Of a stretch of DNA of 64,000 nucleotides, positions 44,202 to 53,983 are shown piece after piece. Source of the DNA: Dehalococcoidia bacterium (GTDB taxonomy: Bacteria > Chloroflexota > Dehalococcoidia > Lucifugimonadales > UBA3495); contig JAJDTP010000005.1 in the NCBI GenBank assembly GCA_022827095.1, positions 372,001-436,000 on the forward strand, read 5' to 3'. The translations under genes were made by a program, and so were the position numbers. Below the pieces are notes generated by a model that was not told the origin of the DNA, did not search any database, and saw only the letters and a list, made by a program, of their open reading frames with translations. Positions within the stretch are counted from its first letter, which is position 1. Each line of letters opens with the position of its first letter.

Positions 44202-45236
44202 CTAACTGTGCGAACTTGCCAACAGGTCGTCGGCCAAGCTCTCGATGCGTTCGCGTTGGGGAATGCAGGCGAGCCAGCGCTCCGGGATGCTCGAGGCACC
44301 GTAGCGGGTGCCGAGTACGGCCCCAGCGGCGGCGGCGTTGGTATCCGTGTCTCCGCCGGCGGCTACCGAAGCCACCAAAGCGTCCTCGAATCCAAAGGGC
44401 GTGGACGCGGCCCAGAGCCCGAATTGCAGGGCCAGCAAGGTGTGGCCGATGAGACGGTGGTCGCGCTTGAGCCATTCAATACCGGGAGGAGGTTGCGCTC
44501 CTTGCTCCAATGCGTCCAGCGTATCTGAGGGGATGCCATCATGGTTGGCCTGGGCTGAGAGATCGGGGCAACCGTCGGCTCGAGCGGCTGCGATCATGCC
44601 GGGAAGGTCCGGTCGCGATCCATTGAGCAGGGCGGCGATGGAGGCGTTGACGAGGATGCAGGACCACTGGCAGGTCTCGGCGTAGTGGGTTACCGCACAG
44701 GTGACGGCGGAATCGGCGACGAGCAGAGCCGGGTCATTGCGGTGGGCGATGGCCACTGGCGCGCAGCGCATGACGCCACCGTTGGGAGCAACGCGATTTC
44801 TCCGCTCGTAGACGATCCGGGCCGGTTCGGGAAGAGGCTTGCCGGTGGATAGCTCGTATATGACATCGCTGGTGGTGATGCCGATGCCGCGGCCGTTCTC
44901 GCGGGCCCAGACGACCAGCCGGTCCGCGAAGTCGCGGGCGTAGTTGCCGCCGGCCAGCAGGGCCTCGCCGAGGCCTACTGCCTGGGCCAGGTCGTCGTCC
45001 ATTGGACGTTGGGCCTCGCCGGTGTCGATCTCGGTGAGACCGTCGGGGTATGACGCGGCGATCCAGTCGTGCCGGTCGCCCTCTACCGGCAAGCCCAACA
45101 GGTTGCCGACGGCAAGGCCGAGGAGAACACCGCGAGCCCGGTCGGACCCGGCCGTGTTCGATGAGTGGCCAGCGGCGCTTCGCGCGATGAAACGGGCGAC
45201 TTCCGGTGCCTGCGATACGACCCCTGGATCGGTCAT
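44202..45236 (-). CDS. ADP-ribosylglycohydrolase family protein
   Basis: 'DRARGVLLGLAVGNLLGLPVEG', 'TEIDTGEAQRPMDDDLAQAVGLGEALLAGG', 'LVASVAAGGDTDTNAAAAGAVLGTRYGASSIPERWL'. Confidence 0.92.
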   Translation of the reverse strand: MTDPGVVSQAPEVARFIARSAAGHSSNTAGSDRARGVLLGLAVGNLLGLPVEGDRHDWIAASYPDGLTEIDTGEAQRPMDDDLAQAVGLGEALLAGGNYARDFADRLVVWARENGRGIGITTSDVIYELSTGKPLPEPARIVYERRNRVAPNGGVMRCAPVAIAHRNDPALLVADSAVTCAVTHYAETCQWSCILVNASIAALLNGSRPDLPGMIAAARADGCPDLSAQANHDGIPSDTLDALEQGAQPPPGIEWLKRDHRLIGHTLLALQFGLWAASTPFGFEDALVASVAAGGDTDTNAAAAGAVLGTRYGASSIPERWLACIPQRERIESLADDLLASSHS

Positions 45237-45361
45237 GAGGTCACTCCTGTAGGCTGATTTGCGAGCGCGGGAAGAGGTAATTCGGGGTCGCCCCGGTTTG
45301 ACACCCCTGCCCAATACGGGTAGCCTTGATTGTGATTTACGGAACAAATGGCATTGGAATT

Positions 45362-47977
45362 ATGGATTCTTCAGAACGCATCAACGAGCTGAAATCGTTG
45401 CTTGGCCGGCGCATCCTGGTGACGGACGGCGCCATGGGAACCCGGATCCAGGCAAGGGGTCTGGGCCCCGAGGATTTTGGGGGAGAGGAGTACGAGGGCT
45501 GTAACGAGTACCTGAACATAACGCGCCCGGACGTGATCCAAGACATTCATCAGGAATACCTGGATGCTGGCGCGGACATCATACAGACCAATACGTTCGG
45601 CGCAACCGCGCTGGTCCTGGGAGAGTATGACCTGGCGCACGAGGCGCGACGGATCAACCGCGAGGCGGCGGGCATCGCCAGGCGTGCCGCTGACGACGCC
45701 ACGGCGAGAGATCCAGGCAAGCCGCGTTTCGTGTACGGCGCGATGGGTCCGACCACGCGGACCATATCGGTGACGGGCGGCCTGACGTTTGACGAACTGG
45801 CGGCTGATTATCACCAACAGGCTGCCGGGCTCATTGAGGGCGGCGCCGACGTGCTGGTGCTGGAAACGGCTCAGGACACCATCAACATCAAGGCGGGGCT
45901 GGAAGGTATCGACCGGGCGCAAACGGAACTGAACTCGGAAGTTCCGACTGCGATCCAGGGAACCATAGAGCCCATGGGAACGCTGCTGGCCGGCCAGGAC
46001 GCCGAGGCGTTCTACACCTCGCTGGCGCACCGCGACCTTCTCTGGGTGGGCTTCAACTGCGCCACCGGTCCGGAGTTCATGACGGACCACATCCGGACGC
46101 TGCATGAGCTGTCCCGGTTCGGGATAGCCTGTGTGCCCAACGCGGGCCTGCCCGACGAAGACGGAAACTACAACGAAACGCCGGAGATGCTGGCCGGCAC
46201 ACTGGAGCGGTTCGCGTCCAACGGATGGCTGAGCGTGATTGGTGGGTGTTGCGGTACCGGGCCGGAACACGTCCGTCGTCTGGTCGAGGCGGTGTCCGGC
46301 ATGAGTCCAAGGGTCGCGAAGCCGATGCCGGAGACGAGGGTGTCGGGCATCGAGGCCGTCGTGGTCAACGAAGACACCCGTCCAACCGTGGTTGGCGAGC
46401 GCACCAACGTATTGGGCAGCCGCCGCTTCAAGCGGCTGATCGCTGGCGAACGGTTCGAGGAGGCTGCTGAGATCGGCCGGCGACAGGTGCGTAACGGCGC
46501 GCACGTGCTGGACGTGTGCCTGCAGGATCCGGACCGGGACGAGACGGCGGACGTGATCAAATTCCTCGACCAACTCAATCGGCGGGTCAAGGCGCCGATC
46601 ATGATCGATTCGACGGACGCGGCGGTGATCGAGGAGTCGCTGAAACGGCTGCAGGGCAAATCCATCATTAACTCCATCAACCTGGAGGATGGCGAGGAGC
46701 GTTTCCAGCGTGTGGTGCCGCTGGCGCGGCGATACGGAGCCGCGCTGGTTGTGGGTTGCATCGACGATGACCCCCAGCAGGCGCAGGCGATCACGCGGGA
46801 GCGCAAGTTGGAGATCGCCCAACGGTCGCACAAACTTTTGACCGAAAAGTACGGAGTGCCCGCCGAGGACATTATCTTTGATCCGTTGGTATTTCCCGCC
46901 GGAACCGGAGACGAGAACTACGTTGGTTCGGCCGCCGAGACCATAGAGGGAGTGCGGATGATCAAGGAGGCGCTGCCCAGCACCAAGACGGTGCTCGGCA
47001 TTTCCAACGTTTCCTTTGGACTGCCGGCGGCGGGCCGAGAGGTGTTCAACTCGGTGTTCCTGTACCACTGCACCCAGGCCGGGCTCGACATGGCCATTGT
47101 GAACTCGGAAATGATGCAACGGTACGCCAGCATCCCAGAGGAAGAGCGGAAACTGTCCGAAGATCTGATCTGGAACCGGGGAGAGGATCCAGTGGCGGCG
47201 TTTGCGGCGCACTTCCGGGACCGGGCGCCGCGCGCCACCGCGGAAGAGCGGTCCGCGCTACCTTTGGACGAGCGGTTGGCGCAATGCATTATCGAGGGGA
47301 GCAAGGAGGGCCTGGCCGACGACCTGGACTTGGCATTGCAGGAACGGGAACCGCTGGCGATCATCAACGGGCCGCTGATGGCCGGGATGGACGAGGTCGG
47401 GCGCCAGTTCAACGCGAACCAGTTGATCGTCGCAGAGGTGTTGCAGAGCGCCGAAGCCATGAAGTTCGCGGTGGCCCACCTGGAACCGTACATGGAGCGC
47501 ACCGATGCTGCGTCACGGGGGCGCGTCCTGCTGGCGACGGTGAAGGGCGATGTACACGACATCGGCAAGAACCTGGTGGAGATCATCCTGTCCAACAACG
47601 GATACAACGTGATCAACCTGGGGATCAAGGTGGCGGCCCAGGAGTTGATCGCGGGCTACCGGGAGCATCACCCGGACATCATCGGGTTATCGGGGTTGCT
47701 GGTGAAGTCGGCCCAGATGATGGTAGAAACGGTCCAGGATTTCCGCTCGGCCGGCATCGCGGCGCCGGTGCTGGTTGGCGGCGCGGCCCTGTCCAATCGG
47801 TTCACGCGACTGCGGATCGCGCCGGAGTACGACGGGTTGGTGGCGTATTCGCCGGACGCCATGAGCGGGCTCGCGTTGGCTAACGTGATCCAGGACGCCG
47901 ATGAGCGCGAGCGGTTGATTGCTCGGCTGGAGACCGAAAGCGTCGAGTTGGAGCGGGAGACGGCGGCGCGGGCATAA
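45362..47977 (+). CDS. metH: Cobalamin-dependent methionine synthase core (homocysteine-, folate- and B12-binding modules; no reactivation domain)
   Basis: 'RILVTDGAMGTRIQARGL', 'GFNCATGP..GGCCGTGPEHV' zinc Cys motifs, pterin domain 'VGERTNVLGSRRFKRLI', B12 motif 'GDVHDIGKNLVEIILSNNGYNVINLGIKV'; ends after the B12 domain. Confidence 0.95.
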   Translation: MDSSERINELKSLLGRRILVTDGAMGTRIQARGLGPEDFGGEEYEGCNEYLNITRPDVIQDIHQEYLDAGADIIQTNTFGATALVLGEYDLAHEARRINREAAGIARRAADDATARDPGKPRFVYGAMGPTTRTISVTGGLTFDELAADYHQQAAGLIEGGADVLVLETAQDTINIKAGLEGIDRAQTELNSEVPTAIQGTIEPMGTLLAGQDAEAFYTSLAHRDLLWVGFNCATGPEFMTDHIRTLHELSRFGIACVPNAGLPDEDGNYNETPEMLAGTLERFASNGWLSVIGGCCGTGPEHVRRLVEAVSGMSPRVAKPMPETRVSGIEAVVVNEDTRPTVVGERTNVLGSRRFKRLIAGERFEEAAEIGRRQVRNGAHVLDVCLQDPDRDETADVIKFLDQLNRRVKAPIMIDSTDAAVIEESLKRLQGKSIINSINLEDGEERFQRVVPLARRYGAALVVGCIDDDPQQAQAITRERKLEIAQRSHKLLTEKYGVPAEDIIFDPLVFPAGTGDENYVGSAAETIEGVRMIKEALPSTKTVLGISNVSFGLPAAGREVFNSVFLYHCTQAGLDMAIVNSEMMQRYASIPEEERKLSEDLIWNRGEDPVAAFAAHFRDRAPRATAEERSALPLDERLAQCIIEGSKEGLADDLDLALQEREPLAIINGPLMAGMDEVGRQFNANQLIVAEVLQSAEAMKFAVAHLEPYMERTDAASRGRVLLATVKGDVHDIGKNLVEIILSNNGYNVINLGIKVAAQELIAGYREHHPDIIGLSGLLVKSAQMMVETVQDFRSAGIAAPVLVGGAALSNRFTRLRIAPEYDGLVAYSPDAMSGLALANVIQDADERERLIARLETESVELERETAARA

Positions 47978-47980
47978 ACT

Positions 47981-48313
47981 ATGCCGGAAAACGCGCGGCT
48001 GCGTCGGGCTTGGGTAGAGTTTCCTAAAACCGAGCATGGGCGCGGAATTGCGAACCGACATCCGGATATACGTCCAGAATGGATAATGCAGGTCATCGAA
48101 TCCCAGGATGCTTACGAATGGACTGAATACTGGACCACGCCGGACGGAGGGCTGCGGGTCTGGACAATTCGCGTGGGATGGGTAGCCGAGATCGTCAGAT
48201 GGCTTGAAGTCGTACTTGAAGAGTTTTCAGACGGCGACCGGTTCCACACTGCATATCTGCTTCGTCACAGACAGGCAGCGCAGCGACTGCGCGGACGAAC
48301 CAGGAGAAGTTGA
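47981..48313 (+). CDS. Uncharacterised protein inserted between metH parts
   Basis: 110 aa MPENARLRRAWVEFPKTEHGRGIANRHPDIRPEWIMQVIESQDAYEWTEYWTTPDGGLRVWTIRVGWVAEIVRWLEVVLEE...; starts 4 nt after the metH stop. Confidence 0.6.
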   Translation: MPENARLRRAWVEFPKTEHGRGIANRHPDIRPEWIMQVIESQDAYEWTEYWTTPDGGLRVWTIRVGWVAEIVRWLEVVLEEFSDGDRFHTAYLLRHRQAAQRLRGRTRRS

Positions 48314-48314
48314 A

Positions 48315-48854
48315 ATGACCGACGCGAAACCCGAGCCGAAATCGAAAGCCGCCCGGCTCGGCGGGCAATGCCTCTGTGGTTGCGGTGAAATCACCATGCC
48401 GAGATACGACTTCCGCCAGGGCCACGATATGCGCGTTAAGGGAATGCTATCCCGTCTGGAGAGAGGCAAGCCGGAGGAGAAATTCCGTCTCCCTGATGTC
48501 CTGGTGGCACGGGCGACCATTGATCCCATGTTCAAGGTACATGGCTACGACGCAGAGACCATCCTCAGGCTGGCGGCAGTAGCGCATTCGGAGTTGAAGC
48601 CGACGGTTTGCTACTACTCTGACACGCAAACGCTGGTCATCGAGAACGGTGCGCGGCGAGCCGAAGGTGAACAAGTAGCCAAAGGCGTCGTGGCGTTCTA
48701 TGCGCAGGAAGAGGGGGGCGAGCTTGATCACGACGTTACGGCGATAACGATAGAAAACGCGGAAGTAACGCTCAAACCCTTTGTGGACGCCATACTGGCA
48801 AAGCACGGCGTGGCGCTCGAACGGCCGGACGCGGAGCAAACGAAAGCGGTGTAA
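48315..48854 (+). CDS. Uncharacterised protein with N-terminal Cys motif
   Basis: 179 aa MTDAKPEPKSKAARLGGQCLCGCGEITMPRYDFRQGHDMRVKGMLSRLERGK...; ATG begins 2 nt after the previous stop codon. Confidence 0.65.
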   Translation: MTDAKPEPKSKAARLGGQCLCGCGEITMPRYDFRQGHDMRVKGMLSRLERGKPEEKFRLPDVLVARATIDPMFKVHGYDAETILRLAAVAHSELKPTVCYYSDTQTLVIENGARRAEGEQVAKGVVAFYAQEEGGELDHDVTAITIENAEVTLKPFVDAILAKHGVALERPDAEQTKAV

Positions 48855-48866
48855 GCCGCGCCGATT

Positions 48867-49784
48867 ATGAATACAGCTGCCAACATCACGTCCGGCGTGA
48901 CCCTGCTGGAAACTTCGCCGCGGCCGCCGGATCTGCGGCTGCACGTCCTTGACGATTACGACCTGGACGAGATTTTCGGGTACATCAACCCGCAAATGCT
49001 TTACGTGCGGCACCTGGGATACCGAGGGCGGTTCTGGGAGGCGCTGCGGGCAGATGAGCCGAAAGCCGTCGAACTGCACCGGCAGGTCCAGAGTGTCGAG
49101 GATGTGATGCTGTCGCGCTCCGACATCAGTGCCCGGGCCGTGTTCAAGTTCTTTCCCTGCCGGTCCGAAGGTCAGTGGCTGATACTTTACGAGTCGGACG
49201 GAACCACCGAGTTGGAGCGGTTCTACTTCGGCCGTCAGCAGGAACGTGAGGGTCTTTGCCTGTCTGACTACGCGCGACCGGTCGGCGACGGGCCGGACGA
49301 TTACGTGGCGATGTTTGCGACGACGGTGGGGCCGGGAATACGAGATCTGTCCGAGCGGTGGAAGAATCAGGGCCGATACCTGGACTCGCACACGTTGCAA
49401 GCGCTGGCAATCGAGTCCGCGGAGGGCTTCGCCGAACTGCTGCACAAGCGGATCCGCACCATGTGGAACATCGGCGAGCCGTCGGGCCTCAAGGTGCGCG
49501 GCGAGGACGAGTTGCGGGACCTTTTCCGCGCCAACTACCGGGGCAAGCGCTACTCGTTCGGGTATCCGGCGTGTCCCCGGTTGGAAGACCAGGAGAAGCT
49601 GTTTGCCCTGCTGGACGTGACGGCGAACATCGGCGTCGAGTTGACGGACGGGTACATGATGGACCCGGAGGGCTCGGTTTCAGCCGTGGTGTTCCACCAT
49701 CCGCAGGCCAAGTACTTCAACCTGGACGAGGCGGATATCGAGAGGCTGGAAGCCGAAATTGCGCAGATGCCGGCGGATCGATAG
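48867..49784 (+). CDS. Stand-alone methionine synthase reactivation (AdoMet-binding) domain protein
   Basis: 'YINPQMLYVRHLGYRG', 'CLSDYARP', 'DYVAMFATTVGPGI', 'YLDSHTLQALAIESAEGFAELLHKRIRTMWNIG', 'YSFGYPACPRLEDQEKLFALLD', 'GVELTDGYMMDPEGSVSAVVFHHPQAKYF' match the MetH activation domain. Confidence 0.92.
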   Translation: MNTAANITSGVTLLETSPRPPDLRLHVLDDYDLDEIFGYINPQMLYVRHLGYRGRFWEALRADEPKAVELHRQVQSVEDVMLSRSDISARAVFKFFPCRSEGQWLILYESDGTTELERFYFGRQQEREGLCLSDYARPVGDGPDDYVAMFATTVGPGIRDLSERWKNQGRYLDSHTLQALAIESAEGFAELLHKRIRTMWNIGEPSGLKVRGEDELRDLFRANYRGKRYSFGYPACPRLEDQEKLFALLDVTANIGVELTDGYMMDPEGSVSAVVFHHPQAKYFNLDEADIERLEAEIAQMPADR

Positions 49785-50753: not shown

Positions 50754-52379
50754 ATGACGACCATCCAGATCACCGAGCCGACGTTGTCCGCCGAACGGTC
50801 CGTCCCTGCGCCCGATGCGCTCGCCAGCCATGCCGGAGGATACGACGGAGCCAGTCCCTCCGGGCATTACACGGCCGTGATCGACGTCGGCTCCGGATCG
50901 GCGCGGGCGGTCGTGATGCAGGTCAACCCGGGCGGTGGTGTTGAGATTGTTGCCCAGCAAAGGGTGACGCTCAACCTGATGAGTCACGTCAGGAGTGACG
51001 GCTATCTGGACGAACAAGGAATGGTCAGCACGCTGGACGCGCTGGAGGATTTCGCACTGGTGGCGCGGGCGTACGGGATTGAAACCATCCACGCCGTGGC
51101 CACCGCCGCGCTGCGCGAGTCGGGCAACGCCGAAACAATCACGGACGCGGCGCGCCAACGGTTCGGCATACCGCTACGAATAATCGACGGTTCCGATGAG
51201 GCGGCCTACTGCTTCGTTGGCGCGATTCACGGTTTGCGGACGAACGATGGACTGCTGGCGGATATCGGCGGCGGCAGCACCGAATTGGTGCGGTTCCGCG
51301 ACCGGGAGCTGGTGTCCAGCATGTCGTTGCCGCTGGGCAGTCTGCGGATCGCCAACCAGTTTGACCTGGGCGGTCGTCCGGCCGCAGGGTCGATGAAGGC
51401 GGCGTACGAGCACGTGCGGACGGTTCTCGGCAACGCTGGGGTTGAGCCGCTTCCCGACGACGCGACTCTGGTGGGATCGGGAGGTTCAGTGCGTCTGCTG
51501 TCTCGGCTGGACCGAGCGCGCGAGCCCTATCCCATCATCAAGTTGCACGGGTATGAAATCCGCGCCTCCGCCTTGGTGGAGCAGATCGAACAGCTGTCTG
51601 CAATGTCGCGGATCGACCGGGCCAGCATACCCGGGATGAATCCGGAGCGCAGTCACTCCATCATCGGCGGCGGTGTGGTGGCCCACGCGTTGATTCAGCA
51701 TCTGGGGACAGACCGTTTGCTGGTGTCCGGTCAGGGGCTGCGCGAAGGGCTGGCACGACACCCGGATCCGCCGTCGGCGTGCGAAAGCGTGCCGCTACCC
51801 GCGCTGGAAACGGTGAGATCGGAATCACTGGCAGATCTGGTGGGTAGATTCGCGCATCGCTTCGGGCAGCGCGGTGAGAGGCGAGCCGAGTTGGCTGAGC
51901 GCATTGCCAAAGCCGTATGGCGCGGGGGCAATCGCCTGATTACCAACTCGCTGTGGTGCGCGGCGCGATTGTTGGACATCGGAAACGCGGTGGATTATTA
52001 CAATCGTCTCAACCGGACTGCGAGTATAATAGTCCGAACCGACCTGCCCGGATTTACCCATGCGGAATCGGCGCAGATCGCGGCCATCCTTTTGGCGGCG
52101 GAGTTTGATACCCTGCCGCGCAGGTTTCGCCAGAGTCGCCTGCTTTGTGACGCGGAACAGCGATTGATTCAGCAAGCGGCCGCGATCCTTGTCGCGGCGG
52201 ACGAATTGGACGGCAGACTGCCTCAGGGAACTGAAGCAAACGCGGTTACAATAAGTCGAGAAAAAGGAACCTGGCGTATCGCGAGTCCCGGTTGGTCGCC
52301 CGTGGCCGCTCCCGGTCTGGCGGCAAGATGGAACAAAGCGTTCGACGAAGACGTGCGAATAGGAAGAGGTGAACCATGA
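50754..52379 (+). CDS. Ppx/GppA family phosphatase (exopolyphosphatase-like)
   Basis: 'AVIDVGSGSARAVVMQVNPGGGVEIVAQQRVTLNL', 'ADIGGGSTELVRFRDRELVSSMSLPLGSLRI', 'DRLLVSGQGLREGL'. Confidence 0.92.
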   Translation: MTTIQITEPTLSAERSVPAPDALASHAGGYDGASPSGHYTAVIDVGSGSARAVVMQVNPGGGVEIVAQQRVTLNLMSHVRSDGYLDEQGMVSTLDALEDFALVARAYGIETIHAVATAALRESGNAETITDAARQRFGIPLRIIDGSDEAAYCFVGAIHGLRTNDGLLADIGGGSTELVRFRDRELVSSMSLPLGSLRIANQFDLGGRPAAGSMKAAYEHVRTVLGNAGVEPLPDDATLVGSGGSVRLLSRLDRAREPYPIIKLHGYEIRASALVEQIEQLSAMSRIDRASIPGMNPERSHSIIGGGVVAHALIQHLGTDRLLVSGQGLREGLARHPDPPSACESVPLPALETVRSESLADLVGRFAHRFGQRGERRAELAERIAKAVWRGGNRLITNSLWCAARLLDIGNAVDYYNRLNRTASIIVRTDLPGFTHAESAQIAAILLAAEFDTLPRRFRQSRLLCDAEQRLIQQAAAILVAADELDGRLPQGTEANAVTISREKGTWRIASPGWSPVAAPGLAARWNKAFDEDVRIGRGEP

Positions 52380-53215
52380 CCGTTTTGCAGAAAGAGCACG
52401 CGTACAAGATGGGCGAACGCTACGGACGCCATCCGGACGACGACCAGTATCCCGGCAAACTGATCATCGTGGAGGGAATCGACGGATCGGGCAAGAGCAC
52501 ACAAATCGACCTGCTGGGCAAGTGGCTCAACAGCCAGAACCTGGTCACTGTGTTCACCGAGTGGAACTCGTCGCCCATAGTGCGGCGTACCACCAAGCGG
52601 GGCAAAGTCGAAGAGATGCTGACGCCGATGTCGTTCAGCTTGATCCACGCCGCTGACTTTGCGAGCCGGGTGCACGCGCAGATCCTGCCTGCGCTGCGCG
52701 CCGGGGCGGTGGTATTGGCGGACCGCTACGTGTTCACGGCGTTCGCTCGGGATGCGGCCCGGGGCGTCAACCGGGAATGGCTCCGGCGGGTTTACTCCTT
52801 CGCTGTGCAGCCCTCGCTGGCGCTTTACTTCAAGGTGCCGCTGGACGTATCCATCCACCGGATCACGGTGGGACGTGAGGAACTGGGTTACTACGAATCT
52901 GGCCAGGACATGGGCTTTTCCAGCGATCGGGAGGAGTCATTCCGCATTTTCCAGGGCAAACTTCTTGAGGAATACGACGCCCTGACCGAAGAGTTTGGCC
53001 TGATGACCATCGACGCCACCCAACCCATCGCAGTACAGCAGCAACAGGTGCGGAGGTACGTGGAGCCTTTGCTGGACGACGTGATGAAAATCAGCGGGCA
53101 GAGCGTGCCGGAGGCTTTGGGCCGTTCCGGTCTCACGGGCCGATACATCACCACTCCCATGCGCCGCCGATTGACCGAGCAGGAAGCGCTGGCCGCCGCC
53201 AAGTCCGACGGCTAA
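52376..53215 (+). CDS. Thymidylate kinase-like protein
   Basis: 'LIIVEGIDGSGKSTQIDLLGKWL' P-loop; 'VVLADRYVFTAFARDAARGV'; ATGA overlap with the upstream ppx-like gene. Confidence 0.88.
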   Translation: MTVLQKEHAYKMGERYGRHPDDDQYPGKLIIVEGIDGSGKSTQIDLLGKWLNSQNLVTVFTEWNSSPIVRRTTKRGKVEEMLTPMSFSLIHAADFASRVHAQILPALRAGAVVLADRYVFTAFARDAARGVNREWLRRVYSFAVQPSLALYFKVPLDVSIHRITVGREELGYYESGQDMGFSSDREESFRIFQGKLLEEYDALTEEFGLMTIDATQPIAVQQQQVRRYVEPLLDDVMKISGQSVPEALGRSGLTGRYITTPMRRRLTEQEALAAAKSDG

Positions 53216-53284: not shown

Positions 53285-53983
53285 ATGAACGAAGTCAGGT
53301 TCTACGGTCATACCCCGCCGGGCGCCGGTGAGGAAGAGACGCCGGGCCGCTTGGTGGTGGTGGAAGGTACCGACGGGGTGGGCAGGTCGACCCAGATTGC
53401 CATGCTCCGCGAATGGCTGGAAGCTGAAGGATATGCGGTGCTGGTCACTGGGTTCCGGAGGTCGGAACTGGCCGCCAACGGCATCGACCGGGCCATGCGC
53501 GGCAACACGCTGGATCCGCTGACGCTCAACCTCTTCTACGCCACCGATTTCTGGGATCGGATGGAAAAGAACATCGTACCGGCGCTGCGCTCCGGGATGG
53601 TGGCGCTGGTCGACCGCTACATCTTCTCCATCATAGCCAGGGCTCGGGTGCGAGGCGTATCACCCCGCTGGCTCAATGACGTGTTCGAATTCGCCGTTGT
53701 GCCGGACGTTGTCCTGTATCTGGACGTGGACGTGGAGCACCTGGTGCCGCGGGTGCTATCGGTGCGGCAATTGGACCACTGGGAATCGGGCGAGGATTTC
53801 CTGCGCGGCCCCGACCTGTACGAAAACTTCATCCAATACCAATCGGCCCTGATCGACGAGTTCCGTGAACTGGCCAAAGAGCACCAGTTTGTCACTGTGG
53901 ACGGTCGGGGTAGCGTGGGCGACGTATTTCAGGCCTTGCAGACCGAGGTCCGCAAGGCCCTGGAAGGCATGGGAGACTACTAG
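53285..53983 (+). CDS. Second thymidylate kinase-like protein with altered P-loop
   Basis: 'LVVVEGTDGVGRSTQIAMLREWL' (GVGRST), 'MVALVDRYIFSIIARARVRGV'. Confidence 0.88.
   Translation: MNEVRFYGHTPPGAGEEETPGRLVVVEGTDGVGRSTQIAMLREWLEAEGYAVLVTGFRRSELAANGIDRAMRGNTLDPLTLNLFYATDFWDRMEKNIVPALRSGMVALVDRYIFSIIARARVRGVSPRWLNDVFEFAVVPDVVLYLDVDVEHLVPRVLSVRQLDHWESGEDFLRGPDLYENFIQYQSALIDEFRELAKEHQFVTVDGRGSVGDVFQALQTEVRKALEGMGDY

Follow-up and report, generated by a model that had tools for sequence, protein, structure and literature searches.

Methionine synthases of the B12-dependent type (MetH) that are divided between separate genes have been described in several bacteria. GapMind lists split MetH in nine cases among 35 bacteria and names BT0180/BT0249 of Bacteroides thetaiotaomicron, which has exactly the same cut as the genes described here (PMC7311316). 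The MetH of Thermotoga maritima, TM0268, likewise has no C-terminal reactivation domain; according to the title of Huang et al. 2007, as cited in PMC7857596, TM0268 reactivation requires the downstream product TM0269. Reactivation in trans is also shared with the split MetH of Phaeobacter, but the RamA/RACo-like (DUF4445) reactivator of that system is nonhomologous to the reactivation protein found here (PMC5764234).

The split MetH of the locus analyzed here is a further case of this documented arrangement, with an unusual passenger. Unlike BT0180 and BT0249, whose locus numbers are far apart, the two genes here either adjoin or lie about 0.9 kb apart. Unlike TM0268/TM0269, to which the locus is likened by the title of the Thermotoga paper, it has a two-gene cassette between the halves, as do three other species. 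We consider it highly probable that a two-subunit B12-dependent methionine synthase has become fixed in this genus of Dehalococcoidia (Chloroflexota), and that the cassette in the junction is a hitchhiker that forms no part of the enzyme.

The two methionine synthase genes

The window, that is the whole stretch of 64,000 nucleotides that was analyzed, contains four consecutive ORFs on the + strand between 45362 and 49784, all of them present as the original prediction placed them. The first (45362 to 47977, + strand) encodes a MetH catalytic core of 871 aa with homocysteine, pterin, cap and B12-binding modules (Pfam PF02574, PF00809, PF02607 and PF02310). No match to the reactivation domain PF02965 was obtained for this ORF in a Pfam profile search, and the claim that the protein ends directly after the B12-binding module is borne out. 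The presence of homocysteine, pterin and B12 modules together with the absence of PF02965 is the composition of a core of the TM0268/TM0269 type. The B12 motif GDVHDIGKN can be read in the translation, as can the cysteines of GFNCATG and GGCCGTG, and the NCBIfam metH model (TIGR02082) is matched over model positions 3-881.

The fourth ORF (48867 to 49784, + strand) encodes a stand-alone protein of 305 aa that matches PF02965 with an E value of 1.3e-50. The original prediction had called this ORF the MetH AdoMet/reactivation domain and had made the assignment depend on such a profile match, which was obtained. The protein matches TIGR02082 over positions 910-1181 and fills the C-terminal part that is missing from the core, so that the two ORFs jointly cover the model. 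It can be aligned to solved MetH structures (8g3h, 8ssd and E. coli 1msk), and the conserved arginine and the GYPACP of the R...GYPACP motif of the solved reactivation domains are both kept. The locus is useful for annotation because each half on its own scores below the TIGR02082 cut-off.

Given complete domains, complementary coverage of the model and the presence of the motifs, both halves are expected to be functional. A RACo-type reactivator (PF14574) had no match in the genus, so the stand-alone domain is likely to be the reactivator of the core. In such a system the core subunit would make methionine. After oxidation of its cobalamin to cob(II)alamin, the reactivation protein would dock on the B12 module, deliver AdoMet and remethylate the cofactor with the help of an electron donor, for example flavodoxin.

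The extent of the split was determined by searching for PF02965 in 99 relatives. Each of the 14 genomes that represent the genus encodes the domain in a frame of 307-345 aa, which is the split form, and three of these 14 are single-contig assemblies. The family's other genera carry the fused form, in which PF02965 is part of a frame of about 1170-1260 aa. Short PF02965 frames in these genera are found at contig ends (G027, G035, G041) or go with a frameshift elsewhere in the core (G046). A species tree built from rpoB and valS separates split from fused genomes with full support. The original prediction that the split is real therefore stands for the entire genus, and the unbroken metH in close relatives that would have told against it occurs only in other genera of the family. 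From these domain assignments, the B12-dependent methionine synthase is predicted to consist of two proteins throughout the genus, as a fixed trait. The loose ends of the two proteins seen here match the linker of the fused relatives, which places the fission inside the interdomain linker, so that no functional residue is lost. Among 399 genomes sampled from the phylum, PF02965 proteins were mostly fused. One genome from another Chloroflexota family (G170, L157:1968-5549) has an independent split, with core and reactivation gene adjacent and no cassette between them. A clean, genus-wide fission of MetH with fused sister genera should be useful for the study of gene fission.

Many of the compared genomes are metagenome-assembled, and the split might be suspected to reflect faulty assembly, a recent frameshift or a pseudogene. 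An assembly artefact was rejected because all 14 genomes of the genus agree on the split, three of them as single contigs. The dN/dS values of the core and the reactivation gene, about 0.05-0.08, and the variation of relative frames at the junction across species also speak against these explanations. We regard all of them as virtually ruled out by the comparison across the genus.

In the ten genomes of the genus with a cassette-free junction, the distance from the core stop to the reactivation start ranges from an 8-nt overlap to a 6-nt gap. An ATG is found 4-6 nt past the core stop in seven of the ten; in the other three (G001, G011, G013) the nearest reactivation start is a GTG that overlaps the core stop by 8 nt. 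The relative reading frames of the two genes vary among species, and readthrough of one stop is thus ruled out as the general explanation. Given how closely the halves are packed, translation of the two MetH chains is probably coupled. In the window the spacers between core, first cassette gene, second cassette gene and reactivation gene are 3, 1 and 12 nt, with all four genes on the same strand. No obvious Shine-Dalgarno sequence for the reactivation gene was seen in the 12-nt gap, and its expression is only predicted. Promoter and terminator scans of the region gave no more signals than shuffled sequences did, and no RNA element of the region matched Rfam.

Identity of the two intervening genes

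The two ORFs between the halves, here called A (47981 to 48313, + strand, 110 aa) and B (48315 to 48854, + strand, 179 aa), are real genes under purifying selection, as judged from dN/dS values of about 0.16-0.33 against orthologues in other species. Both evolve faster than the MetH halves. Their GC3 is lower as well, 0.55 for A and 0.68 for B versus 0.81 for both MetH halves.

B is a candidate antitoxin-like protein with an N-terminal CLCGCG...GHD region and a C-terminal DUF2283-type domain (about residues 95-165). Its homologues match DUF2283 (PF10049) in 8 of the 16 aligned sequences, with a best value of 7.8e-9; the B protein of the window itself falls below the Pfam threshold for this model. 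In the window, the N-terminal part of B (48315-48580) contains the motif CLCGCG...FRQGHD, which is absent from the B of G009 and from the other aligned copies.

A, a candidate toxin-like protein that is distantly DUF4258-like, had no match in Pfam. In profile-profile comparison with DUF4258 (PF14076) proteins of relatives it gave a weak link (P 7e-5, probability 62%); column-shuffled controls gave P values of 0.02-0.5. DUF4258 is counted in the RelE/ParE toxin superfamily, with a target that is unknown (PMC11980606). The AlphaFold model of A is confident, with a pLDDT of 88.6, and consists of three helices, four strands and one helix. When this model was compared with the PDB using Foldseek, no match, to a RelE-like (BECR) fold or any other, was found at E <= 0.001, and the model of B gave nothing significant. 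Sequence searches of the PDB with A and B returned nothing useful, nor did PADLOC report anything informative for the locus.

In the relatives, 30 of 55 DUF4258 matches are closely trailed by DUF2283, and A would thus hold the DUF4258 position of a common pair. The cassette shares with DUF4258-DUF2283 pairs the arrangement of two small adjacent genes on the same strand, the second being of DUF2283 type; it differs in that A is not recognized by the DUF4258 model and B has an extra N-terminal region. For DUF2283 as an antitoxin, no supporting paper was found in the literature searched. On sequence grounds, the best reading is that A and B form a toxin-antitoxin-like pair, the role of A as a toxin being putative.

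Distribution of the cassette and its relation to MetH

Homologues of A were found in 13 of 50 genomes searched, and 13 A loci from named genomes of Dehalococcoidia and other Chloroflexota were compared. B directly follows A at every one of the 13, and at 11 of them an ORF on the same strand ends just upstream, with A starting -8 to 83 nt from its end. The products of these upstream host genes, as identified with Pfam, include the MetH core, RRF (frr), dienelactone hydrolase, a luciferase-like monooxygenase, an abhydrolase, FAD_binding_5 and TPR proteins. Among the many unrelated host sites of the pair, the metH junction is a single example.

The original prediction offered two views of A and B, of which the first was that they assist B12 reactivation as accessory factors and share a transcript with both MetH subunits. 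The tight same-strand packing in the window and the purifying selection on both genes fit this view. However, under this view the intervening genes should be conserved beside the metH halves, and they are found at the metH site in only 4 of the 14 genomes of the genus (G000, G004, G007 and G009). The other ten have kept the same split without A or B at the site, and in five of them (G002, G003, G008, G010 and G012) neither gene could be detected anywhere. Moreover, G007 has a broken A next to two intact MetH subunits, and other copies of the pair follow unrelated genes. With metH being just one of many unrelated host sites, there is no case for a role of A and B in B12 reactivation, and we consider the accessory view very improbable. 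A small toxin-antitoxin-like pair can evidently sit between the subunits of one enzyme and be functionally unrelated to it, which calls for caution in assigning function by association within an operon.

The second view was that a small cassette, mobile or toxin-antitoxin-like, had inserted between the two metH genes. It is supported by the DUF2283 domain of B, the distant likeness of A to DUF4258, the dispersed pairs and the divergent codon composition, although neither mobility genes nor terminal repeats were found. The gap in metH has no room for a recombinase gene, and the only flank repeat at the cassette is 8 bp long, near chance level; an autonomous mobile element was rejected for want of a recombinase and of convincing terminal repeats. 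Phage or plasmid cargo was rejected as well, as no match to A was found in viral contigs or plasmids and none to B in phages.

History of the junction

The four genomes with the cassette at metH do not form one clade; such a grouping was rejected on the rpoB and valS tree (p-AU 9e-62). The A copies at the metH site, in turn, form one clade versus copies elsewhere (support 100/99) and share two small insertions; in the tree of B the metH-site copies were not resolved as one clade. The combination of a single metH-site clade of A with carriers that are no clade on the species tree is most simply read as one entry of the cassette at the metH junction followed by losses. For B, the dS from G000 to G007 does not exceed that from G000 to G004, whereas in both flanking genes the first of these distances is about double the second; this comparison, which rests on 175 codons, makes exchange of the cassette between species possible. 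Taken together, the A-B family would settle directly behind the stop codons of host genes, would have entered the metH junction once, and would later have disappeared from some lineages, with possible transfer from one species to another.

The same trees bear on whether fission or insertion came first. Insertion of A-B into an intact metH of the genus ancestor may itself have caused the fission, several later deletions then leaving the abutting halves. The single clade of metH-site A copies means that the insertion may be old, the carriers are scattered over the genus tree with a single carrier clade rejected, and A begins 3 nt past the core stop in three species. Against this, G003, which branches deepest on the protein tree (support 86/91), has a split metH and no cassette, which would require an extra loss; cassettes elsewhere lie behind intact host genes and not within them; and the fission in G170 occurred without any cassette. 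Insertion as the cause of the fission is therefore unlikely in our judgement. If true, it would mean that a toxin-antitoxin-like insertion in the linker of a multidomain housekeeping enzyme made a stable two-subunit MetH, and that the fission persisted although the cassette was repeatedly lost. The deep position of G003, at moderate support, slightly favours the opposite order, with fission before insertion.

Small, unrelated gene pairs have entered the metH junction on more than one occasion. In G007 a second small pair, consisting of a DUF5678 gene and a retropepsin-like gene (L037:4803-5494), lies in the junction beside the broken A. The same genome has a further copy of B (C1:490272-490577) with one in-frame TAG.

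At L146-L156 and L201-L210, pairs of A and DUF2283 genes lie directly behind the ends of unrelated same-strand genes (frr, hydrolases, luciferase-like monooxygenases, FAD_binding_5), and several species often share one such site. In these Chloroflexota, the family of cassettes that directly follow the stop codons of host genes may merit a study of its own. Elsewhere in the window, a divergent ADP-ribosylglycohydrolase-family gene (44202-45347, - strand) lies immediately upstream of metH. A Ppx/GppA gene is found at 50754-52379 and is followed by two tandem thymidylate-kinase-like genes (52376-53215 and 53285-53983).
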